Positions 7,950 to 64,000 of a stretch of DNA of 64,000 bases are shown one piece after another. The position numbers were made by a program, and so were the translations under genes. Below the pieces are notes generated by a model, which saw only the letters and a list, made by a program, of their open reading frames with translations, searched no databases and was not told where the DNA came from. Source of the stretch: Blautia sp. MSJ-19 (GTDB taxonomy: Bacteria; Bacillota; Clostridia; Lachnospirales; Lachnospiraceae); NCBI RefSeq assembly GCF_018918125.1, contig NZ_JAHLQA010000027.1:62001-126000 (forward strand), written 5' to 3'. Numbering within the stretch: the first letter of the stretch is position 1; each line of letters starts with the position of its first letter.

Positions 7950-7980
7950 TTTACAAAACTCTCCAAATTCATGTTATACT
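7950..7980 (+). promoter_or_regulatory. Promoter of the 8020 surface protein gene
   Basis: TTTACA (7950-7955) and TATACT (7975-7980) with a 19-base spacer; TTACAA one base downstream gives 18. GGGAG precedes the ATG at 8020. Confidence 0.55.
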
Positions 7981-8019
7981 GATAGAAAATAATCATTACA
8001 CATAAAAGAGGGAGTATTT

Positions 8020-8520
8020 ATGAGATACAGAGATGAAGTTCATATCGCGATCATGACACTTTTGTTCTGCTGTGCCATGTTTGCTGTCTATGCGATTGTT
8101 CCAAAAGATGCTGCGGTTGCTGCCAGGGCCAGGGCAACAATAACAGAAGCACCTGAAACAGCTGCCGAAGCAGAGGCGATCCGTTCTTCGCAGGAGGAAG
8201 ATGCCGGATTTACAATCTATACCGAAGAAAGCAATTATGACTATAATGATTCGGATTCTTCCGATAATACCACTTCAGATTCTTCTGATCAGACTTATTA
8301 TGATCCGGGAACAGATACTTCTGACAGTGATGTTGTGGATGAAGATGCCTCTACCCCAGGAAGTACTGATCCGGCAGATCAGATTGATTATCCGTCAGAC
8401 GACACCACAAACGATACTACAGACACTATTGATTCTTCGGATGATACCTGGGAGTATTTTCCATCTGACACAACAGATACCTCCGACAGCGATGTTGCAG
8501 ATGAAGATAATGCATTTTAA
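8020..8520 (+). CDS. Small membrane-anchored Asp/Ser/Thr-rich protein
   Basis: A 166-residue protein of unknown function. It has one N-terminal hydrophobic segment (IAIMTLLFCCAMFAVYAIV, ~residues 10-28), then an Ala/Glu stretch, then a long low-complexity, strongly acidic tail of DSSD, DTTD and TSDSD repeats from residue ~75 to the end. The tail is probably disordered and outside the membrane. It is one of few plus-strand genes, is monocistronic with its own promoter and terminator, and borders the accessory islet. No catalytic motif was seen. Confidence 0.8.
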   Translation: MRYRDEVHIAIMTLLFCCAMFAVYAIVPKDAAVAARARATITEAPETAAEAEAIRSSQEEDAGFTIYTEESNYDYNDSDSSDNTTSDSSDQTYYDPGTDTSDSDVVDEDASTPGSTDPADQIDYPSDDTTNDTTDTIDSSDDTWEYFPSDTTDTSDSDVADEDNAF

Positions 8521-8526
8521 AAACAG

Positions 8527-8577
8527 AAAAGGAAAGGTCAGGAGCTGTGTATTATTGCTCTGAACCTTTCCTTTTTA
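8527..8577 (+). terminator. Terminator (bidirectional-looking) after 8020 gene
   Basis: AAAAGGAAAGGT...ACCTTTCCTTTTT forms a long stem with an inner AGGAGC/GCTCTG part, followed by T-rich sequence. The A-rich 5' flank means it may also end dus transcription from the other strand. Confidence 0.85.
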
Positions 8578-8588
8578 TTTCTGTATTC

Positions 8589-9539: not shown

Positions 9540-9542
9540 AGA

Positions 9543-10001
9543 TTATAAATTTCCAAGGTCTACCTTGTATTCGTCAGAACCTTCCTGATTTACAGTATAA
9601 TATGCTGCTCTTCTTTCTGCATTGATGTAAATGCAGATATCTCCTGTCAGACCTTTGTCTGCTACTGCTTTTTTAACTGCCTTTTCTACATCTTTCAGAG
9701 ATACATTTGTCTCAAAGATTTCAAGAGATACCTCTTTTACTTTTGCGCCTGCTGCTTTGCGAACAGCCTTTGTAGCTGTCTTAGCTGCAGTTTTAGTTGC
9801 AGTCTTTACAGTTTTTTCTGCTTTCTGAACTGCTTCCGGAGCTTTGGCAGCAACTTCTTTTACTACTTCTGCTGTCTTCTCAGCCGGTGCAGCCTCTTCT
9901 ACTTTTTTTGCTGCTGCTTTTACAGTTTCTTTAACCTTTGCTGCTGTCTCTGTGATTGCTTCTGTTGATTTTGCTGTGGTTCTTACACTTTTTTTTCTCA
10001 T
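9543..10001 (-). CDS. DUF6465 family protein with Ala/Lys-rich N-terminus
   Basis: A 152-residue protein whose first ~80 residues are repetitive Ala/Lys/Thr/Glu, resembling histone H1-like or apolipoprotein-type amphipathic repeats. A compact C-terminal domain from ~85 (VSLEIFETNVSLKDVEKAVKKA...ICIYINAERRAAYYTVN) is the DUF6465 domain common in Lachnospiraceae. I chose the ATG at 10001 because AGGAGG lies 8 bases upstream; an upstream in-frame extension lacks a site. Function is unknown. The lysine-rich half could bind nucleic acid or the cell envelope; this is inference. Confidence 0.85.
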   Translation of the reverse strand: MRKKSVRTTAKSTEAITETAAKVKETVKAAAKKVEEAAPAEKTAEVVKEVAAKAPEAVQKAEKTVKTATKTAAKTATKAVRKAAGAKVKEVSLEIFETNVSLKDVEKAVKKAVADKGLTGDICIYINAERRAAYYTVNQEGSDEYKVDLGNL

Positions 10002-46673: not shown

Positions 46674-46783
46674 ATTGTTCGTAACTCACCAGCCTTTCGC
46701 AAACATCAGAAAATTCCATTCTTTAAATCCTGAAATTATTTCTTTTTATATTTTACCATATCTCCCCTGCTTCCACTCATTCG

Positions 46784-48271
46784 TTATACCGAATCACTCG
46801 TTCTTTCTTTCGACATATTTCGCCATTTATCCATCACATAAAAAATCGCAACTCCAGCAGCCACCCCAAGCACCCCACCAAGGGTATTACCAAACAGGTC
46901 ATCCAGTTCTGCAATCCCCAATCCAGTAAAGTACTGTATCGATTCAATCGCACCTGACAGTGCCAGCGCAGTGAGCCACACCTTTTTCTTCCCAAAGATT
47001 GCATAAAGTCCTGTTCCAAACGGAATAAACAACCAGACATTATTGAGCACGTCTACCCGAATCTTCCAACTGGTCAGGAATGTGTCCGCATAGGAAAAGA
47101 GGACCAGATTTGCACGGACATCACCAATTTCTCGAAACATCAGTGTTTCATAAAAAATAAATAACACATAAAACAGCAAACCAGCAATTCGCAGCTTTTG
47201 TGGAATCAGGCAAAAAAGAATGCACAGTACAATACCAACTATAACTACCATAACCGGATAAGCATTGAGAAGGTTATCTATACACAGCTTAACCTGTCCA
47301 TTCTTATTTAAATAAAGCGAGATTTCCCCGACACGTTGTATTCCATATTGGCCTTTATTCAGGGCCACCGGATTGCCGGATGCATCAAAATACATGTTTG
47401 TTTTTTCGTTTCCATCACGATAATAAGTTTTTTTCAAAATCACATAACCATCCTTTGTTGCCGCAGGCTCTCCATCCTGATTTAAAAAAGTCACCTGAAT
47501 AATGCGGTTATATTCATCATAAGTATACGCCTCTCCAGCCTGTCCCGCTTGCAGACGAACAGCTTTGCCCTTTATATCATAATAAAACTTCTGCGCAATA
47601 CGATTTTCTTCATCCAGAATACGTTTTTCCTGAGCAAAGCCACTGAGATTAACGGTCGGAAGTCCATTCATATCCAAGTAAATTATTCCGGTAGTACGAC
47701 CCTCTTTGTCATATATTCTGTGCAATCCATAATATCCCCCTGTACACATCACCGCATTCATATCTGTATCATAATACATATCATCCACTGCATGCCACAA
47801 ATCATCAAAAGACCGGACAATCACTGCATAACCAGATCCCGTTTTCATTGGATTTCCTTCTGCATCCAGATACGTAAGAATATCTGTCTTCCCTCTGTGC
47901 TTATAAGAGATTCCGAAATATCCCCAACAATCTGTCGGTTCTCCATTTTCATCCAGATACCGTTCTTCCAACAGCCTTCCTTCTGTATCTTTCGTCCGGA
48001 CCAGGGTCGCATAATGTCTGTCAATTGCATAAGTAATCTTTCCTTCACCATCCACATAACTTGTTCTGGTAACATTTCCTTCCGTTGTCTCTACCTGTGT
48101 CAATCCGGCTGATACCGCTCCTTTGTCATGATTCACAGTTTTTCCCGAATCAAGAAAATAAACTGAAAAAATCACAAACAGAACAAGTATTGCCCATAAA
48201 ATTTTATATTTTCCTTTCATATTTAAATAATATCTTTTCCCTGCTTTTCTATTCTTAATACATCTTCTCAT
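46784..48271 (-). CDS. VanZ-domain protein with extracellular repeat region
   Basis: 495 residues. After an N-terminal helix (ILWAILVLFVIFSVYFL, ~25-41) come ~280 extracellular residues with recurring ~45-residue units, each around YLDxxGxP...GY.G (YLDENGEPTDCWGYFG, YLDAEGNPMKTGSGYA, YLDMNGLPTVNLSGFA). Four to five membrane helices follow, ending in the VanZ core NVWLFIPFGTGLYAIFG and ESIQYFTGLGIAELDDLFGNTLGGVLG. VanZ-like proteins are linked to glycopeptide/teicoplanin tolerance, but most are uncharacterised. The start could be the ATG at 48220 instead; neither has a strong site. Confidence 0.82.
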   Translation of the reverse strand: MRRCIKNRKAGKRYYLNMKGKYKILWAILVLFVIFSVYFLDSGKTVNHDKGAVSAGLTQVETTEGNVTRTSYVDGEGKITYAIDRHYATLVRTKDTEGRLLEERYLDENGEPTDCWGYFGISYKHRGKTDILTYLDAEGNPMKTGSGYAVIVRSFDDLWHAVDDMYYDTDMNAVMCTGGYYGLHRIYDKEGRTTGIIYLDMNGLPTVNLSGFAQEKRILDEENRIAQKFYYDIKGKAVRLQAGQAGEAYTYDEYNRIIQVTFLNQDGEPAATKDGYVILKKTYYRDGNEKTNMYFDASGNPVALNKGQYGIQRVGEISLYLNKNGQVKLCIDNLLNAYPVMVVIVGIVLCILFCLIPQKLRIAGLLFYVLFIFYETLMFREIGDVRANLVLFSYADTFLTSWKIRVDVLNNVWLFIPFGTGLYAIFGKKKVWLTALALSGAIESIQYFTGLGIAELDDLFGNTLGGVLGVAAGVAIFYVMDKWRNMSKERTSDSV

Positions 48272-48553: not shown

Positions 48554-50026
48554 ATGAAAAAATTATCTGTTACCAAAATGGCTGATACAATCGTCGCCAA
48601 AAGAAAAGCACAAAAACTCACGCAGGCACAGCTTGCAGAAATGACTAATATCAACAGAGGTATGATCAGCCGTCTGGAAAGCTGCGACTATACCCCGTCC
48701 ATCGATCAGCTTCAGGCTATTGCAGAAGTGCTTGGTTTCGAAGTCACTGACTTATTTGAAGATGATAAACCGGCAGTAAATACCTACACTCTTGACAAAA
48801 AATACAATATCGCAGTTGCCGGTACCGGTTATGTAGGTCTCTCTATCGCCACTCTTCTTTCACAGCACAACCACGTAACAGCTGTCGATATCATTCCTGA
48901 AAAAGTTGATCTCATCAACAACAGAAAATCTCCAATCCAGGATGACTATATCGAAATGTATCTTGCAGAAAAGGATCTCGACCTCACCGCTACACTGGAT
49001 GGTGAAGAAGCATACAAAAATGCTGATTTCGTTGTAATCGCAGCACCAACAAACTATGACAGCAAAAAGAACTTCTTTGACTGCTCTGCAGTAGAAGCTG
49101 TTATCGAACTCGTATTAAAAGTAAATCCTGATGCAACCATGATCATCAAATCCACCATCCCGGTTGGCTATACTGCTTCTGTAAGAGAAAAATACAACAC
49201 CAAAAATATCATCTTCAGCCCGGAATTCCTTCGTGAATCGAAAGCACTGTATGATAACCTCTATCCATCACGAATCATTGTATCCTGTGATGAAGATTCC
49301 GCAGAAAAAGCACATACTTTTGCAGCCCTTCTCCAGCAGGGAGCTATCAAAGAAAACATTGATACCCTGTTCATGGGCTTCACAGAAGCAGAGGCTGTTA
49401 AACTTTTTGCAAACACTTACCTTGCTCTCCGTGTATCCTATTTCAATGAGCTTGATACTTATGCAGAAACAAAGGGATTAAACACACAACAGATCATTGA
49501 TGGTGTCTGCCTGGATTCTCGTATCGGATCTCATTACAACAACCCAAGCTTTGGATATGGCGGATACTGCCTGCCAAAAGATACCAAACAGTTACTCGCA
49601 AACTTTGATAATGTTCCACAGAATATGATCTCCGCGATTGTGGAAAGTAACAGAACAAGAAAAGACTACATCGCTGAACAAGTGCTTGAGATGGCCGGTG
49701 CATATGAAGCAAACAGCTCCTGGGATCCAAGCAAAGAGGGCGAAAAAGTCATCGGTGTATATCGTCTGACCATGAAGAGCAATTCCGATAACTTCCGCCA
49801 GTCTTCTATCCAGGGTGTTATGAAGAGAATCAAAGCAAAAGGTGCTACTGTTATCATTTATGAGCCAACACTGAAAGATGGCGAAACATTCTATGGTTCT
49901 GAAGTAGTAAACGATCTTAAGAAATTCAAAAAGAAAAGCCAGGCAATCATCGCCAACAGATATGATTCCTGTCTGGACGATGTGAAAGAAAAAGTATATA
50001 CAAGAGATATCTTTAAGAGAGATTAA
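48554..50026 (+). CDS. XRE HTH fused to UDP-glucose 6-dehydrogenase
   Basis: A 490-residue fusion. Residues ~8-70 are a Cro/cI helix-turn-helix ([43 protein letters not shown]). From ~83 onward is a complete UDP-glucose/GDP-mannose dehydrogenase: NAD motif [18 protein letters not shown], central [33 protein letters not shown], the catalytic-Cys motif [14 protein letters not shown], and a C-terminal UDP-binding domain. It oxidises UDP-glucose to UDP-glucuronate for capsule. The HTH suggests DNA binding, perhaps autoregulation or control of the neighbouring capsule genes; this is inference. Confidence 0.93.
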
Positions 50027-50033
50027 TTTTTTA

Positions 50034-50065
50034 CTGCCAGCAGAGGCTATCTGCTGGCAGTTTTC
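50034..50065 (+). terminator. Terminator of HTH-Ugd gene
   Basis: Perfect 11-bp stem CTGCCAGCAGA/TCTGCTGGCAG, 5-base loop, then TTTTC. Confidence 0.93.
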
Positions 50066-50118: not shown

Positions 50119-51960
50119 TTAAAAACTTCTAATTCGTGCCACTCGGTTTAACTTGTCCAGCAAATATATCTTATCCTTTTCTGATGCAGTACCTTGTTCC
50201 AGTTTTTTTATAATATATTTTTCACCGATTCCCATATCCTGTGCTATCTGGTATAAGAGGCCCACGACAGAAACTCCAGTTCCAATACCCGGAATGAAAC
50301 CGCCTGCTGAAAGAATATAATTCCAGGCAGTACCCGCATCCATCTTTTCCAATCCTGCCTCTGCAATTGCATTATTGTATTCTTTTACCTTTTCTGTGCG
50401 CTTTGCCGGATCAAGAGAAGTCAGATCTTCCAATATTCTTTTCAGCGTATGCGAAGTATGATATTTTTTCTCATATGCCAGAATATGCTTCATATCTACA
50501 GAATTTTCTGGTTTCAGCAAATAGATACTCTGTTTCTCTTCGTCAACTTTCTTACTGTATTCCTCCATATTTTCCAATTGACCTTTTCCCAGGTAATTGT
50601 ACATATTCAGGATATTGCCAAGTATTGTTGCAACTCCTGTATCTGAGTAGCTGCCACTTTCATTCTCTACATAAAACGGGAAATAGGTAGCCTGGAGTGC
50701 AGTGGCAATGTGTATGGACGGAGCATTCACTGTCAGTTCAAACTCTATATTTTTGCGGTCCCTCTCCGGAAGACGTACCAGCTTATTTGCCCCTATACTA
50801 GACAATGCAAACGGACCATAACTTGTCAGCATTTCAAAACTCTCTGTTTTGGTTCTTATCGGCCATAAAAGCATATCTGAAAACATCTTTATCTGTGGAT
50901 TTTGAGTTTTTATGCTCATTTTACAGAGTCCCTGCAGAAACTCTTCTTTTCCTTTCCAGATTTCCATGTATTGTTTTTCAAGTTCGCAATAATACATCGC
51001 CAGCAGGGCATTTATTCCTCTTTTTGAAACAACACAATTCGAATCTATACCATATAAATCTTCCAGAATTTTCCTGTTATATCTATTCTCTGTGTTTGGC
51101 AGCAAAAGCACCAGCTTTTTCTGTTCTACCAATTCATATAAATCCTGTATCGTTAAATGCTGCTGTTCAAGAAATTTGTCAAAATTCATATCCAGCGGAA
51201 AGGCTATGTAAACTTTGTCGTACAGCAATACCGCACTTCGAATATTAATATTTTTATTTTGCCATACTCCAAAATCCATATAGCATTTTGTCTGGTCCGA
51301 ATCAAAAAAACGCAGAGATTCTCTGGTCATATCACCAGAATATATTTTATTTACATTATCAAACCAGAATTCAGAATCTTCCACAGAAAATTTGTAGTGG
51401 CTATCTGTACATGCCAGATTGACCTCATTCACATATAAAGGATCCTGCGGACTCTGATCTACATATATTTCCACATCCGAAAAACCAATCTGCATATTCA
51501 GCACAAAATCTTTTATCTCCGTTTCCTTTTCCGGTGGTATCTGTTTTCCCAGACATATTTCCAGTCTTATGCCATCTTCATGGTGCACTTCTACCTTCCG
51601 AAAATCAGTATCTGTAAAACGGCTTATGAGCAAACTTTCCAGCATCCTAAGCGTAAGAAAAAATCCCTCATTATCTGTAACATTCGCTAATGGGGAAATT
51701 TCTCTGATACTATTCTCAGGTTTCTCACTCACCACTTCTACCCAGTCACCCACATTACGAATATTGCTGTCAAAATTTTGTTTTATTTCTTTGTACAATT
51801 CTTTGTAATTCAGAAGCTGTATACTGTACTGTCCTGATTCCAGTAAATATATTCTGGTCTCCAGACCATAATACTCCATTCTCAACCTTAAGTCCGCACG
51901 TTTTATACGTCCACAATGACGAAGTGCGGTCTGCATCTCTTCGGTAATTCCGTTACTCAT
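50119..51960 (-). CDS. Unknown protein downstream of RADAR genes, hydrophobic C-terminal segment
   Basis: 613 residues, no family recognised. The ATG at 51960 follows AGGTGAAG; a GTG at 51969 is an alternative. Most of the protein is soluble alpha/beta (VEVHHEDGIRLEICLGKQ, LLYDKVYIAFPLDM). Near residue 560 a Gly-rich hydrophobic stretch (YILSAGGFIPGIGTGVSVVG and onward) could insert in a membrane or form a pore. A basic helix (KDKIYLLDKLNRVARIRSF) ends it. As last gene of the operon after rdrB it occupies the slot where RADAR operons carry membrane accessory genes (Csx27-like rdrC or SLATT rdrD), but it is larger and unlike either. Effector or accessory role is inference. Confidence 0.75.
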   Translation of the reverse strand: MSNGITEEMQTALRHCGRIKRADLRLRMEYYGLETRIYLLESGQYSIQLLNYKELYKEIKQNFDSNIRNVGDWVEVVSEKPENSIREISPLANVTDNEGFFLTLRMLESLLISRFTDTDFRKVEVHHEDGIRLEICLGKQIPPEKETEIKDFVLNMQIGFSDVEIYVDQSPQDPLYVNEVNLACTDSHYKFSVEDSEFWFDNVNKIYSGDMTRESLRFFDSDQTKCYMDFGVWQNKNINIRSAVLLYDKVYIAFPLDMNFDKFLEQQHLTIQDLYELVEQKKLVLLLPNTENRYNRKILEDLYGIDSNCVVSKRGINALLAMYYCELEKQYMEIWKGKEEFLQGLCKMSIKTQNPQIKMFSDMLLWPIRTKTESFEMLTSYGPFALSSIGANKLVRLPERDRKNIEFELTVNAPSIHIATALQATYFPFYVENESGSYSDTGVATILGNILNMYNYLGKGQLENMEEYSKKVDEEKQSIYLLKPENSVDMKHILAYEKKYHTSHTLKRILEDLTSLDPAKRTEKVKEYNNAIAEAGLEKMDAGTAWNYILSAGGFIPGIGTGVSVVGLLYQIAQDMGIGEKYIIKKLEQGTASEKDKIYLLDKLNRVARIRSF

Positions 51961-51980
51961 TTTCTTCACCTGATTTATTT

Positions 51981-52079
51981 CTACCCACGTTTGACTATCG
52001 CATTCTTCCCTCGAAATGCAATACCAATTTTAATAATAGGATCAACACCTGCATGTTTTTTACTTTGATTCTTTATCAT
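51981..52079 (-). CDS. Possible 32-residue basic ORF coupled to rdrB
   Basis: The ATG overlaps the rdrB stop (TGATG) and the frame ends 20 bases before the next gene. It encodes a basic peptide beginning MIKNQSKKHAGVDPIIKIG. No independent ribosome binding site exists, so it would depend on re-initiation. It may be chance, or a small coupled peptide. Confidence 0.35.
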   Translation of the reverse strand: MIKNQSKKHAGVDPIIKIGIAFRGKNAIVKRG

Positions 52080-54625
52080 CAAAAAACTTGATTAATCCCC
52101 ATTTTTCTCACATAATCAATCCATTCATAAATATCCTCAATATCATATAAAGAATTCATATCATCATCTGTTGCCTTCTTTAGTGCCAAAGTCATCAAAG
52201 CATATTCGTTTTCCAACAATGTATCAAATACCCCTTGATCATCTGTGTTTATTGAAACGCAGATATTTTCACCTGGGTTTGTTTCTTTCAACTTTCTAGA
52301 ATTAAATCTTAAAATCGGATGTTCTTCATACTTCTTTATTGTGCCAATTAAGTAATTTGAAGATGGATTTGTTTCAATGCCAATTCCCTGACAAGCAAGT
52401 TCTGAAATCATTTTATCCTGCACAGCACGGACTAATTTAATATATTCCTTCGTTATTTTAAATTCAGTTATTTCATCTCCTTTTTCCCGAACCTTTTTAT
52501 TAAAATGATAATAATAATACAAATCCCTATACCGCTTATTTCTTCGAAGATCATTATCTACACGTGGGTTAAAACGAAATCTATCGAAATAGACCAATTC
52601 CGTTTTGCTCAAAGCTGTATTAAATTCTTTTTCTTCTAATCTATAGCTCTGAGGATTGTCTCCTCTTAACTTCCAGCTTTGATAATATTCATGTATTGAT
52701 GGACAGGTACCATTTCTAATATTGTTCTCATAAATTTCTTTATACAATGATGTATACTTTTCAATCATTTTCGTTTTTAACTTTTCTTCTAATGAACAGC
52801 CTAATTCGCCAGACTTACAATACAACCAGACAATATCATCCAAAAGAATTTGTTTTGAAAGAACAACCTTATATCCCTTCATTTCATAATATTTTTCAGG
52901 AGAGATTCCAAGAGCTAAAGCATGTCCCAACCTGCTGCCCCTCCGAAAATTACAAAACAGCAATACTTCATCAATTGCCCGTAAACCATCCGGAATATCA
53001 AAGAAATCCTCACCAACATGATATGTCATTTGAAGGTTTTGTACATCATCACAATTATGAAAGCAAGAGCCATTTTCAGTCTTCACTCTTTTCGCAGTTA
53101 AATAACGATATACCTGTCCAAATACTTCTGGGCGACACGCAATTTCACTGGAGCATGCATCAATCCCTTTAATATGTCGATTAATCTCTCCATTTTTGTC
53201 TAACATCGCCACTATACTTCTTGCCTGGCGCGCTGCCATTTTGCGTACGTTATTATTTCGCGGCACTCCATCCTTAAATGATTCATCAAACAATTTCGGA
53301 AAATGTAAAACATATATCAACTTGCCATATCCATCATTTACAGGTTCTGATTTTACAATGTGCTCATATTTTTTCAAACTTTTAATCAATTTTGCAGAAG
53401 TATTTTTCGGACAAATTCTTGCTTCTAATGAAAGCACATTTTTCTTTGACAAAGATTCATTCAATGCCAAACGCACTAATTCATCCTCATATGGCTTATG
53501 CCCTTCAATAAAATACTCTTTTCGATCCTGATAATCTGAAAAATTGGCAAATCCAATTTTTTTATTGTTCTGAATCAATTCCCCCCTGAAATCTGTTCGC
53601 ATAATTAAATAAGCATAAAATACATTTTTTTGATATCTATCAAAATGTCCTGTTAAAACACTTCTATAACAGCAATATAAAAACTTACGCTCTCCAGCCA
53701 ATAACCGACACACATCTTCGTTGTACTTCATCATTTCATTTTCCAACGCATAATCTAAAACCACCCCATTAATTTCAGCTCCATAAAGATTCCCAGCCAT
53801 AACAATCAGATTTTGAATATCACTTGTTATTTCCCGTAATGATATTCCTTTTTCAACTTTTTTCACCAATACTTCTGCATTTTCAAACATATATGTATTT
53901 TCTTTCAGCAAGAAAAATAAATATACTCTGTACAAAGCAGCTCTCAGACACTCCGTATAAAAATCCTCTTTTTCACCTCTTTTATCAAAACTGTCATTAC
54001 GCTGTATCTGCATAGTTTTTGTTATTTTCTTAAACTCAGTGTTTCTTCCTGAAATATGATTCATCAAGCATAACCAGTTTAATTCAAAAATTTTTGTGGA
54101 ACCATTAAGATGAAAATGATTTTCCGCCACTCCCTGATTCAAAATATTATGTAATCTGACATTATCACTTCTAATAATTGGAAGCCAAGCAAAGTACTGG
54201 GTATTATATCCTTTTTTCCAGTCATCATACGCTAGGTATGCACAGGTAAAAAAATCCTGGCCAATCAGCAATGAAATTTCTCGCCAACGCAACAATTGAT
54301 CAAATTTACATTTTATCTCCTTTCCATCCAAATGCAGCATCTGATTCGCCAGAGAAAACACCAACTGAAATACTCCTATATTATTATTCAGATTATTTTT
54401 CCAACTATCAGTCTCTGTTTTCATTTGATTACACATAAACAAATAATTATTTTTACGCTCATCATCTGTTGCACACGAAAACACGTCAGCCGAATATCGC
54501 ATGTAAATGTCTTGGGCAATCTTACTATAGGAGCAGTAATCAACCAGTTCATTCTGACTTTTTACCACATACATATATGGAATTTTCTGAAATGCAATTT
54601 CTATATTTCCACGTTCTATATCCAT
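52079..54625 (-). CDS. rdrB: RdrB-like adenosine deaminase of a RADAR anti-phage system
   Basis: 848 residues, the size of RADAR RdrB and far longer than metabolic adenosine deaminase. Deaminase motifs in order: ENHFHLNGS (H170, H172; zinc ligands), YHVGEDF (H536, E539; zinc ligand and proton shuttle), RRGSRLGHALALG (H568), and SINTDDQG (D795/D796). Large helical insertions lie between them. In known RADAR, RdrB forms a cage with RdrA and deaminates adenosine in RNA and/or ATP to inosine during phage infection, halting growth. The ATG overlaps the rdrA stop (TAATG). The gene is A/T-rich relative to housekeeping genes here, consistent with transfer. Confidence 0.88.
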   Translation of the reverse strand: MDIERGNIEIAFQKIPYMYVVKSQNELVDYCSYSKIAQDIYMRYSADVFSCATDDERKNNYLFMCNQMKTETDSWKNNLNNNIGVFQLVFSLANQMLHLDGKEIKCKFDQLLRWREISLLIGQDFFTCAYLAYDDWKKGYNTQYFAWLPIIRSDNVRLHNILNQGVAENHFHLNGSTKIFELNWLCLMNHISGRNTEFKKITKTMQIQRNDSFDKRGEKEDFYTECLRAALYRVYLFFLLKENTYMFENAEVLVKKVEKGISLREITSDIQNLIVMAGNLYGAEINGVVLDYALENEMMKYNEDVCRLLAGERKFLYCCYRSVLTGHFDRYQKNVFYAYLIMRTDFRGELIQNNKKIGFANFSDYQDRKEYFIEGHKPYEDELVRLALNESLSKKNVLSLEARICPKNTSAKLIKSLKKYEHIVKSEPVNDGYGKLIYVLHFPKLFDESFKDGVPRNNNVRKMAARQARSIVAMLDKNGEINRHIKGIDACSSEIACRPEVFGQVYRYLTAKRVKTENGSCFHNCDDVQNLQMTYHVGEDFFDIPDGLRAIDEVLLFCNFRRGSRLGHALALGISPEKYYEMKGYKVVLSKQILLDDIVWLYCKSGELGCSLEEKLKTKMIEKYTSLYKEIYENNIRNGTCPSIHEYYQSWKLRGDNPQSYRLEEKEFNTALSKTELVYFDRFRFNPRVDNDLRRNKRYRDLYYYYHFNKKVREKGDEITEFKITKEYIKLVRAVQDKMISELACQGIGIETNPSSNYLIGTIKKYEEHPILRFNSRKLKETNPGENICVSINTDDQGVFDTLLENEYALMTLALKKATDDDMNSLYDIEDIYEWIDYVRKMGINQVF

Positions 54626-57360
54626 TATTTACCCTCGTTGTATTTGCTATAAAGTTTCGCTATATTTTTATATTCCTCATTCAGTTCTTTTGTTATATCT
54701 AATTTAGGATTTTCTACTTCGTATTCCGCAACTCTTCGATAATAATCAAGCAAATAATTGCGTGTCTTTATAAAATCAGCATGCTCCTCAATTTTTTCAT
54801 CTTCATGTTTTAACTGATAACATTTCATATTATGAAGCATATTTCTAACATTTTTCATAACATTATCAGAAGATTTATTTATCAAATAAGTTGATACACT
54901 TTGTAGTGGCTCATTCGGAAGAATTTCAAACTTCAAAGAATCCATCATCTTTTTTACTTTATTTTGTTTTTGATTTTCCTCATATGATATAGATTCTTCT
55001 ATACTTCGTTGTAATAATTCTGCATATAGTTCGCTAATACTAATTACAACCTCTTCTCCATCTGAATCTCTCAATACTAAATTATTAAGTTTCTCTCTAA
55101 AATCCTCATTAATATATTCTCTGTAAAAGCGTTCTATATTTCTAAAAAATTGATCCACAACGGCTCTTGTCTTCCCACGCTCATCTTTGCTACCACCTTC
55201 TTTAGACTGTCTGTTTTTCCAACAGTATTCGTGGAATCTCATTATTAAATCTATATTAGAAAAAATTGTTCTAAAAGCTTGAATTTTGTTAAAATTATCA
55301 TTCTCAATCTTATCAGCAACTTTTTGAAATTCCACTTTACTAACTCCTAATATCTCTATATTTAACTTTTTGTATAAGCTTTCCAGGCTACAAATCCCAA
55401 CAATATAATTTTCCAAACATATTTGTACTGTATTATTTAATCTATAATTTGAAAAAATTATACATGTGTTGTATATATATCTAGGCATTGGTGGATTTTC
55501 TCCATTTGCCGGAACCCATACACAAATATTAGAGAAAAGTCCCAGTAACATCCAATTAATAATCTTATATTCTTTCTCCTTATAATTTTCAGTTAATTTT
55601 GATATATAATCTTTGTTAGAATCTAACAGTTCATTATTTATATTAAATGCATTTCCTATTTTTCTTGAAATAATATTATATACACTAATTGTTGAAAAGG
55701 CGAATCTGGATCTTACACTTTGATTTTCATCAGCTGGAAGCATATCATCAAATGAAGGTCCCCATATGTAACCACCTATGAATTTCCCAAAGGCTTCATT
55801 GCTTTTGCTTCTTTGCAACTTATTTAGTCTAATTGTATACAATATTTCGAACATATAAACAAATTTGTCTGCTTTTTTGTCAAACATGCTATTCTTATAT
55901 GTATTAAACCAATTCAATATCCAGAAAAAACAGTTTCCTGTTTCCATCTGAAAAGTTGCTGATGGAAGCTCATTTTTTTTATCAGTTTTTTTATAATGTT
56001 TATCCAACCAATACCAAACCTCTGAGTTTAACTGTAAATATGGCAACCTAATCGAATTCTGCACTTCTTTATAATTCTCCAACTGACAATTCTGTGGAAT
56101 CCATTCTTTTTCATAGTACTCCGTAAATTTCTCAATATTTTCCAGAAATTCACTATCGTTTTCCGGAACTTTCATATCTCCAAGAAGAATAATCAAATTC
56201 ACAGTGTCTCGTAAATTATCTGGTTGCAACCAGTTCATTTTTTCTTCATTCAATAAAAATCGCATTCCGGTTTTCATATATATCAAATCCAATAAAGAGG
56301 CATTCAATGAATTCGTCATCTTATCCTCATAAATAATTTCCTCATTTTTCTTCTGGTAGCTAATTTTCGCATTTTCTATATATCTTACATTTGGCAGATA
56401 AATCCTTCTCGACTTTGGAATCAATTTTGCAATATAACGCTCAGCCATATCTTTAACATCAATACTTGTGCCTGCAATCTTTCCTTGATTTTTCAAAACA
56501 TTACTATAATTTTTGAAGTTCTCTTCCTGCACACAAAGCTGCAATTGTTCCACTTTAAGTGCCATTACAATAACAATATCCGGAATAATCAAGTACTTTC
56601 GTATCTGTTCAGCCATTTTATATGCATTAGCATTGCACATGTCTAAATCATCGATCGCAATGAGAAGTTTTTTGGAAGTGTATCCTGTATGTGTTTCGTC
56701 TTTTAGCATATAATCCAAATATAGCTTTACTAATTTACTCAAATCCCGTCTTAACCGCAGGCTTTCTCCCATTTTCGATATTTTTTCTATACTTCCCTCA
56801 TAATCATATTCCTCTTCTAACATTTTTACAGGATCATTGAGAAGAGAAATATCCTTATATACTTTTTGGAATTCCTGTAATAATTGTTCTCTCTTATACT
56901 TATCAAATTGTTCCGGAAAGGCATCATACTTATCATAAAATTTACGGTAAAGTGAAGCAATAATAATATCTAAGACATTATGTACATTATCAAAAGCTGA
57001 GGGATCAATAACAATAGGTTCTGAGAAAATAGTATTTTTCACACTCTCGCACTGCTCAAATATAGCAACATTTTTTCGCCCCTTCCCCTCGTATACTTCT
57101 TTATCATATACTGCTTTAATAAAAGTAAACATTGCGCTGCTTTTACCTTCTCCTCTTTCTCCACAAAAAGCGATAATATTATTCTCAGTCTCTGCCTTCA
57201 TCCAATCTGCCAGGTTCTCCTTCTCATTATTTGCTACAATATCATCTAGCATGGCAGCAGCTTCCAGATATTGATTATAAAAAATGTCTTTTTCTTCAAT
57301 CTTATCTTTAAGACTTAATTTGAATTCCTGTCCTTTAATTACAGTTAATACTTTTTCCAT
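54625..57360 (-). CDS. rdrA: RdrA-like P-loop ATPase of a RADAR anti-phage system
   Basis: 911 residues, matching RdrA length. The N-terminal ATPase has Walker A FCGERGEGKSSAMFTF (~65-80) and Walker B KLLIAIDDLDMCN (~231-243), with sensor-like IVIVMALKVEQL after it: an AAA+/KAP-type core. The remaining ~600 residues are helical with no membrane segment. In RADAR, RdrA oligomerises and associates with RdrB; ATP binding and hydrolysis are needed for defence. AAGGAG lies 10 bases upstream of the ATG, 47 bases after the MBL gene. Very A/T-rich. Without the deaminase neighbour it would be called only KAP-like. Confidence 0.85.
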   Translation of the reverse strand: MEKVLTVIKGQEFKLSLKDKIEEKDIFYNQYLEAAAMLDDIVANNEKENLADWMKAETENNIIAFCGERGEGKSSAMFTFIKAVYDKEVYEGKGRKNVAIFEQCESVKNTIFSEPIVIDPSAFDNVHNVLDIIIASLYRKFYDKYDAFPEQFDKYKREQLLQEFQKVYKDISLLNDPVKMLEEEYDYEGSIEKISKMGESLRLRRDLSKLVKLYLDYMLKDETHTGYTSKKLLIAIDDLDMCNANAYKMAEQIRKYLIIPDIVIVMALKVEQLQLCVQEENFKNYSNVLKNQGKIAGTSIDVKDMAERYIAKLIPKSRRIYLPNVRYIENAKISYQKKNEEIIYEDKMTNSLNASLLDLIYMKTGMRFLLNEEKMNWLQPDNLRDTVNLIILLGDMKVPENDSEFLENIEKFTEYYEKEWIPQNCQLENYKEVQNSIRLPYLQLNSEVWYWLDKHYKKTDKKNELPSATFQMETGNCFFWILNWFNTYKNSMFDKKADKFVYMFEILYTIRLNKLQRSKSNEAFGKFIGGYIWGPSFDDMLPADENQSVRSRFAFSTISVYNIISRKIGNAFNINNELLDSNKDYISKLTENYKEKEYKIINWMLLGLFSNICVWVPANGENPPMPRYIYNTCIIFSNYRLNNTVQICLENYIVGICSLESLYKKLNIEILGVSKVEFQKVADKIENDNFNKIQAFRTIFSNIDLIMRFHEYCWKNRQSKEGGSKDERGKTRAVVDQFFRNIERFYREYINEDFREKLNNLVLRDSDGEEVVISISELYAELLQRSIEESISYEENQKQNKVKKMMDSLKFEILPNEPLQSVSTYLINKSSDNVMKNVRNMLHNMKCYQLKHEDEKIEEHADFIKTRNYLLDYYRRVAEYEVENPKLDITKELNEEYKNIAKLYSKYNEGK

Positions 57361-57407
57361 ACTGTATCTTCTCCTTCTTATTTAGTATATTCATAAAAAT
57401 TTTATCT

Positions 57408-58538
57408 TTATAATTCTAATTTATAATATCCATTTTCCCCTACTCTCACCTCCTTTTCCGAATATTCTTTTCTTAAGTGTTCTAATTTTTTATTACAATC
57501 ATAGTTAAATATCATTCTCTTACATTTCTCTGACCTGGCAAATTCCAAAAGTACATCCAAGTTTGGATGATCGTGTTTTTGCCCATCCGTTGAAAACAAA
57601 ACATTGTCCACATTTAATGCCTTTATTGTTTCTGTAGTTATGTTTTTATCAGATCCATGATGTGGCAATTTCACGCAATCAAATTTAATCCTATCCCATT
57701 GCGGAATTCTTTCAAGACACTGCTCGGCTACCGCATCTCCCAAAAACAATAAACGATATTTTTTGCTTTTTTTACTGGTATATTCTAAGTATAACGCAAT
57801 TGAAGATTTATTCGTGACACTAGGATCATTCGTTCCAGAAGCGAATCTCTTTGCTTTTTCGCTACTGCAAAAACGCTCAAAGGCTGTTCCATAACGCAGC
57901 GAATCTCCTTTTTCTTCCGGTAGATATTTTATATCTAAAAACTGATTCCACTTCTTTTCCAAATTTTCCAATTCACATTTTCCTGGATTCAATACACGTG
58001 CCGACAAATATGGGTCAGATAGCAAAACTGCATCTGCACTACTGTGCACCGCATTTCCCCCATAATGGCAATTCCATTTTTGTTTCCATCTCTTCTCCAG
58101 CAATTCTGTTAATGTTTGCCCTTGAGAATATCCAATGTCCATTCCTCTAACATTAGTTTCACAAACTACATTTAATTTACAGACTTCATTAAATACACTT
58201 TCCTCATCATTACGTGAAATCTGCTTTTTCTGCCCTGTAAATAAATGTTCGTAACCGTTATACCAGATTTCGCCTATTTCAATCTGAAGGTTTCCTCTCT
58301 CTAAAGCCTGAAGCAATGCAATAATTCCCATAATATGGTCATTATCAATATGTGTTACTACCAGTAAATCAATTTTTTTCCCTTGGGCTCCCAGCTTTTT
58401 CAAGCTGGAAGCTAAGGAATTCTCAAATGTGTCTTTAAATCCTCCATCTATAAGGATCCGATAATCAATCTCTTGAAAGGTAATTAATACACAATCTCCT
58501 GCTTTTGCCGGAAACAGTTCAATCTCTACTTCACTCAT
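57408..58538 (-). CDS. MBL-fold metallohydrolase (ComEC/Rec2-like) in RADAR operon
   Basis: 376 residues from the ATG at 58538, which overlaps the giant gene's stop by 8 bases and has GAGGGG upstream; the frame is open to 58592. All metal motifs are present: AKAGDCVLI and ILIDGG at the N-terminus, THIDNDHIMG (HxDxDH), the LLFLGDA strand, and KLPHHGSDKN, with DGQKHDHPN as the final His region. This is the ComEC C-terminal-domain type of MBL, soluble here, with a ~100-residue helical insertion between the second and third motifs. A nuclease or nucleotide phosphodiesterase activity is plausible. It is co-translated with the giant protein, so the two probably act together. Confidence 0.88.
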   Translation of the reverse strand: MSEVEIELFPAKAGDCVLITFQEIDYRILIDGGFKDTFENSLASSLKKLGAQGKKIDLLVVTHIDNDHIMGIIALLQALERGNLQIEIGEIWYNGYEHLFTGQKKQISRNDEESVFNEVCKLNVVCETNVRGMDIGYSQGQTLTELLEKRWKQKWNCHYGGNAVHSSADAVLLSDPYLSARVLNPGKCELENLEKKWNQFLDIKYLPEEKGDSLRYGTAFERFCSSEKAKRFASGTNDPSVTNKSSIALYLEYTSKKSKKYRLLFLGDAVAEQCLERIPQWDRIKFDCVKLPHHGSDKNITTETIKALNVDNVLFSTDGQKHDHPNLDVLLEFARSEKCKRMIFNYDCNKKLEHLRKEYSEKEVRVGENGYYKLEL

Positions 58539-61500
58539 CTTCCCCTCTTCGCTGTACAATTTTGCAAAAATCTTCACAGTACTCAATTCCAAACCTTCTT
58601 ACTGTTTCCCGAACGGGAATTTCTGTATCCGTTACTAAAGAAAGCGGGAGACTGTTTTCACTTAACAGCTGATTCCATATATTTATCAAAATTCTAGTCT
58701 CCGATTTTTCCAACTTATCCTTGGCTGTATGGCTTCCTGCTCCTGGAGTTAAAATACGTCCCATTATAGAAAGAGCTTTCATTATATGACTTTTTCCAAG
58801 GATCTGTACATGAAATTTTTCACAATCATCCCAACATCCACAACTCAAAAGAATACATTCTACAACCACTTGCAGGTCTCTGTTACAAGCTGTATGCATT
58901 TTAAGACCTTTGCACGTAATCTTAAGATTTTCTATCTGCTGGGGTGACAACTGACCACTAAATGCCTCATTCTCTTCTCCAAGATTGTTTTCTCCACGCA
59001 TCGACAGCTGATTTAACCGAAGCCAAAGGCCGTCTTTTTCTTTAGACGATAGCAACCACTCTTTTAACAGAATTTCCTGGTAGATAGAACTTCCACACCC
59101 AATCCCAAGCATTCTTGTCAGATGAACAGAAAGTGGTTTTGCTATATTTCCTAAAACATCATTTCCAGCTTTTCCCTCAATCACATCCAACAGTAAAATT
59201 GCAGAAATAACTGTAACTACATCCATTTGTTTTACACAATTCTTTTCTTCTGCTTTAAAACCAGACGCAAGGAATTTTCCTTCATTTTCAAGCCATGCGC
59301 CTAAAGTAAGCCGAATAAATTCATACAGTTCAGAAAAATTTAACTCGCTATGTATTTTCTTGGATGAAATACTGTATAAATATACCAATTGTTCTGAAGT
59401 ACGATTTGAATCCCGTAATAACTCATAATTCAATATTCCTTCATCTGCATCTTTTTCCGCCTGATCTTTCATACAGCGATAACGCTCAAAACATAGTGGA
59501 ACTTCCTTTTTAAACCTGAACAGATTTAATTTTCGAAATCTGCCCATGTCATCTTCGAGCGAAATATTTCCTATAGCATGGTATACCCAAGGTGTAAGGT
59601 GCAGAGACATTCTTCTCTCTCCATATGAAAAAGCAATAACACAATCCGCCTGTTTTTTACTGATTTCAATTGGAAGTACTATTTCCCTTTTACAGTCATA
59701 CTCTATTTCTGAATATAAATAAATCAAGTCACCTTTTGGATATAATTCAGCTAAATAACAATATCTTCCAGTTTCATCAGTTTCCACCATTGCAACAGGA
59801 ATTGCACGATATCTTGTTCCGTCTGTTTTCAAAACAGCGTACTTTTGTTCATTTTGCCATGTTCCAGTCAAAGATAGAAAACCGCTGCTGAGACATTTAG
59901 CAAATCTGTTTTTGCGTCTGGATAACCCTTCCCAAAGAGCTTCCAAAGAAACAAGTTTTGCCCTTGATGCCTTGGAAGCTGGAAGCCAGCGTAAAGCCAG
60001 ATTATCCTTTGTCCTGCATAAAATACCATCTGCTGCTTTTATGCAAAACAACATCTGAACCTCCACTCTGTCTTTTTCCAGAACCTCTTGCAGACCACTA
60101 TGCCAGCCATCCTCTTCTTTGTGAATCCAGAAACTTATTTTTTCTTCTTTCAGCTTGTTTACGACTACTGATGTTTTTTCGCCTTCAATTCCAGGCAAAA
60201 TATTCTGTGCCGGTATTCTGAAAATCGCTTTTCCTGCTCGTACTACAATTTCTTGTAAAGAGTTTCTCGCATTTCTCACGCCAACACATATACAACAAAC
60301 TTTGGTTCCACATGGCAATTCATCCATATTCGGCTGCTGATAATATACCCACGCCTCCAACATACCTTTTTGTACACGTACATTATTTACTGTCATTGGC
60401 AACGTCAAACTGCTTTTCTGCATCCATTTCTTATTTACACTGTCAAACAAATCCTCGCACAACCATTCTGCATTCTTCCACAGTTCTTTATGTGCAGGCT
60501 TGATTCGCACTGAATTCCATCCTGGAGCAGTCATAAACTTATTAGCAAAATTGACAAATAATACGTTACCACTTCGGATTTCCTTTCCTTCTTTCAGAAA
60601 GAATACGCCATTATCAGCAGTAATACAGGATAACTCCGAGTCTCTTAAATCCTCTTTTACTTTTATCGGCAGAACAACTGGCCACAAATCATCCCCTAAT
60701 ACAACTCCATCACCATCTATGCTCTTTACAGGCAGAAAAGTCTCCTTAACGCCCATTCCAGCTCTGCCGCCAAATTTTATGTCTTTCAGGATTAATTTTT
60801 TCTGATTTCCAGAAAAGCCTTCATCTTGACATAACTGTAATCTATCACCAGGCGACAGCATATCTGTCCATAAACCAGACAAAAGAACCTTTTTCTCACC
60901 TGCAAAGAGATATACAACAGGAATTTCTATTAATTTTCCAGGAAAGACTTCGATCCAGACAGTATTTTCTGTTATACCTGCAATTGGATATTCCCCATTT
61001 TCTTCAGGAAAGCCATTTTCAATAATGGATCTTACAGGAAAACCATACTTCAGGAATTCCTCCCTCTGATATCGCAGTTTTCCTCGTTTATCTGGGAAAA
61101 GAACGATTTCATCATATTTTTTCCCATCTGGCAATGGCCATGCTTCCAGATAATTTCTAGTTTCATTATAAAAAGCCGTTTTTCTGTCATGGTAATACCA
61201 GCGCCCTTTTTTCACGCGCTTAACAAGTTCTGAAATTTTTCCATCCCAGAAAGAAATCCGCTCCCAACCCACATTTTCTATTTTTTCACTTTGATTAAAA
61301 TAACGCAGTTCTGGCTTCTCTCCATCTTTCAGACCTAGTCTTGCCGAAGAAAATTTCCAATTGTCTTTTCTATGTATCTCTGTATTTTCATTTTTTTCTT
61401 CTTTTACCAGATACTCTACTCTCGGAATCGGTTCTAAAATTTTCTTTTCAAACAATGCTCTGTCGGATATCAAAATCTGAGGTAATCCAGCAACTGTGAA

Positions 61501-64000
61501 TTGATTTTTATCTAATCTTTTATTTAGTTCCTCCCATTCTCCACTTTGCAAATCAGCAGAATTTCTCTCTATGCTACAAAGCTGCCTATATGCTTTTGCA
61601 GCACCATCCATAATCAAAAGTTCTGCCGGACGTCCTTTTTCAGATAAATATCTTCCATCACCAGGAAGAATCACCTTTCCTTTCAGATTCTCGTCTTCCA
61701 TCCATAAATAGGCTAAAGTTCCCTGACTAAAATTGCCTCCAACCACGTCATTTGCCAAACGAATGAGAATTCCCGGTGCAACTTCTGCTATTATCTGTTT
61801 ATTCTCATTCCCTAATGTAACCAGACACTCTTCCTGACTGTTTGATACCCATTTTTTCAGACTTTCCACAGCTCGTTTTGGAGTAGAGATAACATTTCCA
61901 TCCCACACACTCATACTCGCATTTGCTTCATTTAATTTTTTAAGACGTACAAGCATTTTACATCCATAATACTTGCGCTTATTTTCACGATATAGAATCC
62001 TTAATTTACTTTCGTCCACAGAAAATTGTCTTCTTAAAACATTTACCTGCATTTGAGGATTTTCTTTTTCATCCGGTAACTCATTTGGCAGGAAAAGAGA
62101 AATCATATAATCATTATTTAGCTTATTTTTCTGTACCCCATTATCTGATCCAGCAACTTTGATTTCTCCTGCAGCCATACAAACTGTTTTACCTTCTAAG
62201 AATGTTATTCCACCATTCTTTCCATTTAGAGGTAAATATGTAAAAATCAGACTTGTAACACGATTCCTTTCACCAGTATCTTTTAACAGTGCAAAAATAA
62301 GCTTGGTATTTTCCTCATAGCCCTCTTCTTCCAACAACGTCTGAATGCTCTCTTCCTCAAGAAACGCGCTACTGGTTTTATAAAATTCCCATCCTGTTCC
62401 TGATTGAAAATCAGTTTCTGTTACTGAAACTCTTTCTATGGAAATTTTTCTCAGTTCCAAATCCCGTCGAATTTCCAGTAACTGAATAACTCCTCCATTT
62501 TCACCAAAACTGTCATCCCAAATCCTGCTTTCAACCTGGCGTTCAATAGCACTATATTCTATCTGGATTCTCCAACCATGCCTGCCCTCGCCTTTTATCA
62601 TAGAGAAATATTTTATTTTGTCCCCATAGAACAATATAGTATTAATTTTATTTCCATCTATATCTAAAATATCGTCTTCTTCCACCAGAAGACAGTATCC
62701 ATATCCCCATTCAAATCTTAAGCGATTTTGTTCATCCAATCCAGCATAATACAGATTTGTATGAATTTTATCACCACTTATAATGTTAAACTCTCCTGCC
62801 AGTTTATCGTCTACATAAAATGGTGTGGCTTCATGACAGGAAGCAATCCACTCACCATTTTTCTGCAAAAGCAGTGCCCGAACACGATTTTTGGAATAGT
62901 ATCTTCCAAGTATCCATGGTCTATCCTCTTTAACAAAAGAAACTTTATCCGTCCATCTATCCCTGAGCGTTCCTTTTTCTATATCGCATGGAACCTTCAA
63001 GCCATGGAGCCGAAGTTTTCGCTTCCCATTTTCATTAACCTCAGTTCCGATTACATGATAATCGCCTCCATTTATCCACTCTTGATATGTTTCACTTATC
63101 AGCGCATTCGCCTTCTCCAAGTACTCCTTTTTATTCTTTTCCAAACTGATACTACGGCTGTAAAATCCGCGGCGCATGTCATAAAATTTCGTATTTCCTT
63201 CTGTAGTGAATAAGTAGACATCCGCATATACTGCCCAGTTTTTTCCCTTCTCTACGTCATCGAACTCTCCCCAGCGGCAATCTCCATAATACTCTTTTCC
63301 GTCCAAAGACAGTCTTACAAGATTCTTATGCTTCGCATACGGAAATACTTCCCATGAATAATTTCTTTTTCGTACATTGGTAACAAAGCCTTTTCCTGTT
63401 CTGACTCCGCAAATTGAATTTTCTTCATATTTCTGTACCCTATCCGTATTCCATACATATAAAAATGGACGCTCCCTGTCCTGTGTAACCATACACGGTC
63501 CATATCCCGGGACATTCATATTCCTACTTACATAAATTCCCTGAACCTCTGCCCTTTTATCAGCTCTATGATCTTCAATCTGCCAGAGCGCCCTGACCTG
63601 TATTTTTCTGAAAACGCTTTTAAATATCCATTTTCCATCCTTCTGTCTGCTTGCGGTTACCGGTGTTCCTAGTGATTTTGGTCTGCTCGCAAACGCAGAC
63701 ACTGGAGCCTTGATCTCTTTTATTTCATTTCCAGTTTTCAGCCATAATGCCAATTCAAGTTTACTTACATCCACATCTGAAGTATTTACTTTATCTGAAA
63801 ACAGAGATACAATTCCATCAAGATCACCTTCATACTGGCTTAATGCAGGAATATCTATTCCCTCATATTCAGCTTCCTGATCAATCGGTTTTAATTCCAC
63901 ACATTCTACCACACATAAGCGTTTCGATATCATTTCTACCGCCAGATTGTTTGCAGCTTCCATAGATAACGACTCTGATGCACAGTCCACTCTCAGCCCA
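58531..64000 (-). CDS. Giant multi-domain protein, 5' end outside window
   Basis: At least 1,820 residues; the frame is open at the right edge (preceding codons read GLRV), so the start lies beyond it. No family recognised. Numbered from the GTG at 63990, about 1,450 residues are beta-rich with many aromatic-rich strands and short repeats of the form (E)V.PG..I.I (EVAPGILIRL ~735, EVFPGKLIEIP ~1015, VVRAGKAIFRIP ~1248) and GD.I/GDRLQL turns, suggesting a string of small barrels. The last ~330 residues are helical (ELYEFIRLTLGAWLENEG, VVTVISAILLLDVIEG). There is no signal peptide in the visible part and no Walker or nuclease motif. First visible gene of the RADAR-like operon; possibly a scaffold or phage sensor (inference). 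Confidence 0.8.
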   Translation of the reverse strand, partial: GLRVDCASESLSMEAANNLAVEMISKRLCVVECVELKPIDQEAEYEGIDIPALSQYEGDLDGIVSLFSDKVNTSDVDVSKLELALWLKTGNEIKEIKAPVSAFASRPKSLGTPVTASRQKDGKWIFKSVFRKIQVRALWQIEDHRADKRAEVQGIYVSRNMNVPGYGPCMVTQDRERPFLYVWNTDRVQKYEENSICGVRTGKGFVTNVRKRNYSWEVFPYAKHKNLVRLSLDGKEYYGDCRWGEFDDVEKGKNWAVYADVYLFTTEGNTKFYDMRRGFYSRSISLEKNKKEYLEKANALISETYQEWINGGDYHVIGTEVNENGKRKLRLHGLKVPCDIEKGTLRDRWTDKVSFVKEDRPWILGRYYSKNRVRALLLQKNGEWIASCHEATPFYVDDKLAGEFNIISGDKIHTNLYYAGLDEQNRLRFEWGYGYCLLVEEDDILDIDGNKINTILFYGDKIKYFSMIKGEGRHGWRIQIEYSAIERQVESRIWDDSFGENGGVIQLLEIRRDLELRKISIERVSVTETDFQSGTGWEFYKTSSAFLEEESIQTLLEEEGYEENTKLIFALLKDTGERNRVTSLIFTYLPLNGKNGGITFLEGKTVCMAAGEIKVAGSDNGVQKNKLNNDYMISLFLPNELPDEKENPQMQVNVLRRQFSVDESKLRILYRENKRKYYGCKMLVRLKKLNEANASMSVWDGNVISTPKRAVESLKKWVSNSQEECLVTLGNENKQIIAEVAPGILIRLANDVVGGNFSQGTLAYLWMEDENLKGKVILPGDGRYLSEKGRPAELLIMDGAAKAYRQLCSIERNSADLQSGEWEELNKRLDKNQFTVAGLPQILISDRALFEKKILEPIPRVEYLVKEEKNENTEIHRKDNWKFSSARLGLKDGEKPELRYFNQSEKIENVGWERISFWDGKISELVKRVKKGRWYYHDRKTAFYNETRNYLEAWPLPDGKKYDEIVLFPDKRGKLRYQREEFLKYGFPVRSIIENGFPEENGEYPIAGITENTVWIEVFPGKLIEIPVVYLFAGEKKVLLSGLWTDMLSPGDRLQLCQDEGFSGNQKKLILKDIKFGGRAGMGVKETFLPVKSIDGDGVVLGDDLWPVVLPIKVKEDLRDSELSCITADNGVFFLKEGKEIRSGNVLFVNFANKFMTAPGWNSVRIKPAHKELWKNAEWLCEDLFDSVNKKWMQKSSLTLPMTVNNVRVQKGMLEAWVYYQQPNMDELPCGTKVCCICVGVRNARNSLQEIVVRAGKAIFRIPAQNILPGIEGEKTSVVVNKLKEEKISFWIHKEEDGWHSGLQEVLEKDRVEVQMLFCIKAADGILCRTKDNLALRWLPASKASRAKLVSLEALWEGLSRRKNRFAKCLSSGFLSLTGTWQNEQKYAVLKTDGTRYRAIPVAMVETDETGRYCYLAELYPKGDLIYLYSEIEYDCKREIVLPIEISKKQADCVIAFSYGERRMSLHLTPWVYHAIGNISLEDDMGRFRKLNLFRFKKEVPLCFERYRCMKDQAEKDADEGILNYELLRDSNRTSEQLVYLYSISSKKIHSELNFSELYEFIRLTLGAWLENEGKFLASGFKAEEKNCVKQMDVVTVISAILLLDVIEGKAGNDVLGNIAKPLSVHLTRMLGIGCGSSIYQEILLKEWLLSSKEKDGLWLRLNQLSMRGENNLGEENEAFSGQLSPQQIENLKITCKGLKMHTACNRDLQVVVECILLSCGCWDDCEKFHVQILGKSHIMKALSIMGRILTPGAGSHTAKDKLEKSETRILINIWNQLLSENSLPLSLVTDTEIPVRETVRRFGIEYCEDFCKIVQRRGEDE

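Follow-up and report, generated by a model that had tools for sequence, protein, structure and literature searches.

A divergent RADAR pair behind a protease-giant-nuclease gene row in Blautia sp. MSJ-19, probably two adjacent systems and not a single expanded RADAR

The 64,000-nucleotide stretch of Blautia sp. MSJ-19 that we analysed (the window; positions 62001-126000 of contig C10) ends in a row of minus-strand genes in which rdrA and rdrB, by their sequences a divergent but real RADAR pair, directly follow genes for a trypsin-like protein, a giant protein and an MBL-fold hydrolase. We read this row as two neighbouring systems, a trypsin-giant-pro-nuclease variant lying upstream of RADAR, and not as one expanded RADAR, and give this reading a probability of about 0.7. 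We favour it because the 13 other RADAR loci surveyed all lack the MBL, giant and trypsin genes and the 23 loci with relatives of the MBL, the giant or a 613-residue protein all lack rdrAB; because the order protease-(middle gene)-MBL recurs on plasmids and in Canu; because the MBL groups with trypsin-partnered MBLs (95/95); and because a relative of the giant follows a CHAT protease without rdr genes. Against it we count the tight packing of the five genes, the uniqueness of the upstream trio, the altered trypsin site, the short second loop of the MBL and the gene order in two loci that carry its closest relatives (L059 and L060).

Read 5' to 3', the row runs trypsin-like gene, giant, MBL, rdrA, rdrB, a 32-codon fragment and the gene of 613 residues (Table 1). 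An earlier interpretation made from the DNA letters and their open reading frames (the sequence-only reading) had described these genes as tightly coupled; they are real and close-packed, and what it observed is borne out with refinements. Eighteen bases separate the trypsin-like gene from the giant and 47 bases the MBL from rdrA, while the two overlaps it described are both present, 8 bases between giant and MBL (ATGAGTGA) and the single base shared by rdrA and rdrB as TAATG. The giant, for which more than 1,800 residues had been claimed, is indeed a large frame, but the window shows only its C-terminal 1,819 of 3,049 residues; a 613-residue protein does follow rdrB on the same strand, but 118 bases downstream and without overlap. 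ATG 58538 is the most likely start of the MBL gene, which the mechanical list of open reading frames places at TTG 58592. Since four of the six long frames match known families or solved structures (trypsin, MBL, RdrA and RdrB), they are genes and not chance frames.

Table 1. Features of the gene row, with the gene found upstream of rdrA in other RADAR loci.
Feature	Position	Strand	Basis or remark
Trypsin-like gene, 572 aa	C10:131417-129699, outside the window	-	trypsin domain match
Giant, 3,049 aa	window 58531..64000, starting beyond it at C10:129680 (= L002:9680)	-	open frame
MBL-fold hydrolase, predicted gated pro-nuclease, 376 aa	57408..58538	-	NCBIfam/PADLOC matches, metal motifs, Ile135
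rdrA, RADAR AAA+ ATPase, 911 aa	54625..57360	-	RdrA structure matches, Walker A/B
rdrB, RADAR adenosine deaminase, 848 aa	52079..54625	-	NCBIfam, PADLOC and PDB RdrB matches
32-codon fragment, AAA-ATPase_like/PDDEXK_9 tail	51981..52079	-	C-terminal residues shared with L003:12849-14696
613-aa protein	50119..51960, ATG 51960	-	open frame, family searches without match
407-473-aa gene	L049:11121-12398, L050:16286-17509, L051:11042-12418, L053:16948-18369		upstream of rdrA

The first five genes, from trypsin to rdrB, are packed in the manner of a single transcript, and their co-transcription is plausible because the gaps between them hold no terminator-like site in a sequence scan, such scans not being evidence of function. 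GC3 lies between 0.267 and 0.310 throughout these five genes and does not clearly set rdrAB apart from the giant module, so that we dropped it as a discriminator between the two; the difference in whole-gene GC arises mainly at codon positions 1 and 2. A VanZ-like gene in direct repeat flanks the island (window 46777-47728 and L002:11701-12650, 89% over 952 bases), which suggests an insertion or duplication around it. A gene on the opposite strand (48554-50061) separates the island from the window copy of this repeat; it encodes a nucleotide-sugar dehydrogenase whose N-terminal part is a helix-turn-helix domain, and a terminator-like hairpin of 12 pairs lies at 50033-50061.

The RADAR assignment made by the sequence-only reading holds, as both proteins match known RADAR proteins by profile. 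Searched as a single sequence with phmmer, RdrA matches solved RdrA structures at 1.4e-4 and 2e-4, and a 7-member profile reaches 3.9e-18 and 5e-18 against 8fnt and 8hr7; Walker A (GERGEGKS) and Walker B (IDDLD) are intact, and no RdrA match was found in PADLOC or NCBIfam. RdrB matches the NCBIfam RdrB model at 9e-57 (193.2 bits, below the equivalog cut-off of 800), the PADLOC RdrB model at 4.2e-34 and the PDB RdrB entry 8fnw at 1.8e-22 as a single sequence; a 9-member profile reaches 3.6e-55 against solved RdrB. Its zinc histidines (H170, H172, H536, H568) and catalytic E539, which correspond to the residues named in the accessible text of PMC9994260, are intact. We judge that the adjacency of the two genes, the structure matches and the active site outweigh the missed 800-bit, name-assigning cut-off. 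The pair thus shares with RADAR as solved (8FNT/8FNV/8FNW, 8HR7) the overlapping order of an RdrA-type ATPase and an RdrB-type deaminase, the Walker A/B motifs and the His4-Glu deaminase site; it differs in the divergence of both sequences, in its place behind a protease-giant-nuclease module and in the absence of a SLATT match among the proteins scanned.

RADAR operons can hold small companion genes, named rdrC and rdrD. In the RADAR locus of an Aureibacter plasmid, a SLATT-annotated gene directly follows rdrB (L047:19608-20315), an arrangement not seen in the window. Immediately 5' of rdrA, four of the six RADAR loci from relatives carry a gene of 407-473 aa (Table 1), for which Pfam TPR reaches its cut-off in L051 and is weaker in L049, L050 and L053; it is a possible accessory of this RADAR branch. 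In a further relative, L052, rdrA is apparently split into two consecutive frames before rdrB (8888-9982 and 7372-8880, 364 and 502 aa), the first of which alone appears among the RdrA profile matches listed.

The MBL matches NCBIfam Avs1a at 4.9e-72 (242.8 bits, below the cut-off of 420) and the PADLOC models LmuA (3.9e-69) and RTasMBL (6.6e-43), and contains the metal motifs THIDNDH, LGDA and PHHGS. By these similarities it is a member, with its metal site, of the Avs1a/LmuA/RTasMBL family of gated pro-nucleases. The accessible text of Tuck et al. (2025; PMC12799240) describes how trypsin-like or caspase partners activate members of this family in Avs1, Lamassu, Hachiman, DRT and Canu; in those of Hachiman and Avs1, the nuclease is gated by two insertions and the partner protease cuts after conserved isoleucines, while the insertions of the Canu nuclease carry conserved glycines. 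The proposal that the MBL is a second enzymatic output is supported by these matches and by that paper. In an alignment of 19 MBLs, the first gating insertion is present in the window protein, with Ile135 at the gating-loop-1 column and Gly next to it. This column holds Ile in 7 of the 11 other trypsin-partnered rows (Tyr, Tyr, Leu and Met in the remaining four) and Phe or Met, then Gly, in the four caspase-partnered rows, the trypsin partners having been confirmed by a trypsin profile whose building set excludes three of them. The second gating insertion is short and has no isoleucine region. In a tree with long branches, the window MBL falls together with those of L059 and L060, both trypsin-partnered and from the same bacterial family; in these two loci the MBL lies upstream of the protease, opposite to the order seen here.

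Among the relatives searched, 91 of 194 match the MBL, mostly by short and weak hits, many of them in frames of 700-900 residues, as would be expected for ComEC; the MBL loci drawn from relatives are the six best genomes of these 91. In the relative L058, the MBL gene is broken by a transposase-like gene (L058:9051-12774). Another nuclease-protease locus, L059:3208-10468, combines MBL, a 452-aa trypsin-like protein and a third, large protein of 1,591 aa that matches TPR weakly, without rdrAB.

The trypsin-like protein matches Pfam Trypsin at 9.3e-9 and a PADLOC LmuA-type model at 2e-17, and covers only positions 5-163 of the 1,924-position Avs1b model. It keeps His53 and Ser172 of the active site; at the Asp102 and Gly193 columns it has Met and Leu, respectively (chymotrypsin numbering, in which the active-site positions are His57, Asp102, Gly193 and Ser195). 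Gly193 is present in all nine other aligned trypsins and an acid stands at the Asp102 column in eight of them, Glu in L060 and L069, the exception being L059. Its protease activity is uncertain because of these two substitutions, which may have weakened or abolished it. The C-terminal 364 aa match none of the 193 other genomes, and this part has no detectable homology with the CHAT C-terminal region (best BLASTP E 0.58, hhalign probability 0.2%). A search of plasmids with the protein gave no match. As a tblastn query it is poor, hitting none of 36 loci and missing known trypsin genes too, so that its absence by tblastn is uninformative and we used profiles of trypsin, MBL, giant, RdrA and RdrB on six-frame translations.

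The giant is a frame unbroken over all its codons, without a Pfam or PADLOC match over its whole length; its last 1,819 residues have no PDB match, and its last 2,949 residues no homologue in 193 other relatives or in 396 other genomes of the family. On plasmids it matches only two Streptomyces records, whose giants are 99.9-100% identical over the part compared. The 3,142-aa protein of Streptomyces sp. Alt3 (near-identical in NBC_01201) aligns colinearly with it in three pieces that together reach from residue 2 to residue 2,894 (2-332, 960-1367 and 1494-2894, at E 6.6e-5, 6.9e-11 and 1.5e-44); as these searches used one sequence and the relative is about 22% identical, distant giants can escape them. 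In Alt3, as here, a protease-type gene lies immediately 5' of the giant, but it encodes a CHAT domain and not a trypsin, and the 29.7-kb Streptomyces stretch has no rdr, MBL or trypsin matches. The position of the giant would suit a scaffold or regulator acting between protease and pro-nuclease.

We surveyed the linkage from both sides. The RADAR set (n = 13) comprises six loci from relatives among 194 genomes (L003, the Blautia wexlerae contig of genome G058, and L049-L053) and every plasmid record with RdrB, seven in number (L047 and L078-L083); the opposite set (n = 23) comprises 19 MBL loci (six relatives and 13 of 50 plasmid records), one giant locus and three of the 613-residue type. By tblastn, RdrB is found in 13/13 and RdrA in 12/13 of the RADAR set. 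Profile searches find no MBL, giant or trypsin in any of these 13 loci, and tblastn likewise finds no MBL or giant there and no 613-type gene; some of the stretches are short (L049 is a 14.6-kb contig), so that linkage at longer range may be missed. Conversely, neither rdrA nor rdrB occurs in any of the 23 opposite loci by tblastn or profile, and the trypsin profile matches 12 of the 19 MBL loci and not one RADAR locus. Even the closest RADAR loci, with RdrA 49-51% identical to that of the window, lack the MBL, giant, trypsin and 613-type genes, and the nearest rdrAB, that of Blautia wexlerae (RdrA 49%, RdrB 67%), is preceded by a DUF6088-type gene and not by an MBL. No accession is common to the MBL and RdrB plasmid records (40 listed of 50 for MBL, all 7 for RdrB).

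In a phylum sample, RdrB matches 5 of 398 genomes, namely the window's own and four with short C-terminal deaminase-motif matches (E 3.6e-4 to 9.6e-4); the frames of these four, 321-376 aa long, are what ordinary adenosine deaminases would give. RdrA has weak matches in G113, G118, G129 and G074, without an RdrB match in the stretches fetched there. Viral contigs gave no lead with giant, RdrB, MBL and 613 queries (six short peptides each, close relatives only). The trypsin-giant-MBL-rdrAB linkage is thus seen once, and the exact trypsin-giant-MBL trio was found nowhere else. These counts speak against the idea that the extra genes are part of RADAR: in the loci surveyed, relatives of giant and MBL occur without rdrAB and rdrAB occurs without them, a pattern that the sequence-only reading had itself associated with chance clustering. 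To judge from these sequences, the linkage looks like that of neighbours in a defence island. The rdrAB pair is seen free-standing, and the upstream trio would be so too, to go by its parts.

The 613-residue protein has no family match. Its relatives, of 622-624 aa, lie on Photobacterium and Salmonella plasmids (23-24% over ~370 aa, best E 5e-11), where an RnlA-type toxin gene or an integrase gene is nearby and RADAR is not (three of four matched records fetched, one unannotated); a single weak match in G021 gave no lead. Its GC3 is 0.365, against the lower range of the five genes upstream, and on the Kyte-Doolittle scale of hydropathy none of its 19-residue stretches averages more than 1.52. 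The 32-codon fragment that separates it from rdrB has IKIGIAFRGKNA(I/V)VKR in common with the C-terminus of the L003:12849-14696 protein, composed of PF09820 and PF08011 (AAA-ATPase_like/PDDEXK_9), and we read it as a scar of past recombination. The gene is probably a third, unrelated neighbour outside both systems. We rejected it as a RADAR effector in view of its relatives apart from RADAR, the foreign fragment after rdrB, the GC3 shift and the lack of a strong membrane segment; the membrane effector proposed earlier is likewise unsupported.

The upstream module resembles known nuclease-protease systems in parts. With the pairs in the accessible text of PMC12799240 (HamM/HamA, Avs1a/Avs1b, Lamassu, DRT), it shares the MBL family, a first gating insertion with its isoleucine and a trypsin-like gene in the same row. 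In the trypsin cases of Tuck et al. described there, protease and defence-associated core enzyme form a single fusion and the nuclease lies upstream; here the MBL is downstream with a 3,049-aa gene between, the protease is a separate gene fused to no known core protein, the trypsin site is altered and the second gating loop shortened. Canu (caspase CanA, CanB, nuclease CanC), in the same text, has the protease-middle protein-nuclease order with close or overlapping genes, but a caspase in place of the trypsin domain. Four plasmid loci show this caspase-middle gene-MBL order, with middle genes of 1.3-1.5 kb, far smaller than the giant, and Phe or Met followed by Gly at the column of Ile135; in two other plasmid loci an S8 peptidase directly precedes the MBL, with one extra gene after it in one of them. 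From Avs1 (AVAST type 1) the module differs in that the giant has no PADLOC match, the trypsin spans only the start of the Avs1b model and an Avs1c match is absent among the proteins scanned.

Under the reading of two neighbouring systems, two anti-phage systems would follow one another in the same orientation and probably share transcription, the upstream one apparently a protease-activated DNA-cutting module. Either the giant or the C-terminal region of the protease itself (about 350 aa) would sense a phage cue; alternatively, the giant would hold the protease, which frees the nuclease. The protease would then cut the MBL gating loop, and the nuclease would degrade DNA and stop the infected cell. 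For RADAR, RdrA rings would dock on the RdrB shell, with conversion of ATP/dATP to ITP/dITP.

Two functional alternatives have to be weighed. RADAR may have gained the nuclease-protease pair as part of one merged system, RdrA or RdrAB triggering the protease-giant so that ATP-to-ITP conversion is joined by DNA cleavage. The tight packing from trypsin to rdrB and the plausible single transcript are consistent with such a merger, as is the fact that unrelated systems have acquired the pair more than once (Avs1, Lamassu, Hachiman and DRT, in the accessible text of PMC12799240). However, the arrangement is seen once and in none of the 13 other RADAR loci, and whereas the trypsins of that text are fused to a defence-associated core enzyme, the one here is fused to neither RdrA nor RdrB; we consider the merger unlikely. 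Quite unlikely, in our view, is that the upstream module is a relic or non-proteolytic, with a pseudo-protease, an MBL under the giant or another trigger, and RADAR as the working system. The Met and Leu at columns conserved in most other trypsins argue for it, but His53 and Ser172 remain, L059 likewise lacks the acid while L060 and L069 carry Glu at that column, the giant's frame is unbroken, and the MBL retains its metal motifs and Ile135.

The full version of the sequence-only reading, in which the five genes and a 613-aa membrane effector make up one expanded RADAR, is very improbable: the common strand and short distances fit it, but the relatives of the 613-aa protein occur apart from RADAR, a foreign fragment intervenes after rdrB, GC3 differs, and no strong membrane segment is present.

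RADAR is not named in the main text of PMC12799240 (0 occurrences), and we found no paper describing RADAR with this module in the literature searched, supplements, preprints and most subscription journals lying outside its reach. If a functional merger were true, it would be the first with RADAR in that literature. The trypsin-type partner stands apart here, with the giant between it and the nuclease, and a CHAT-domain gene precedes another member of the giant's family; were a single scaffold family to accompany two unrelated protease folds, the giant's role would become testable. The place of the module next to RADAR provides a natural setting in which to ask whether modules of this kind are recruited to new systems merely by inserting into their operons.
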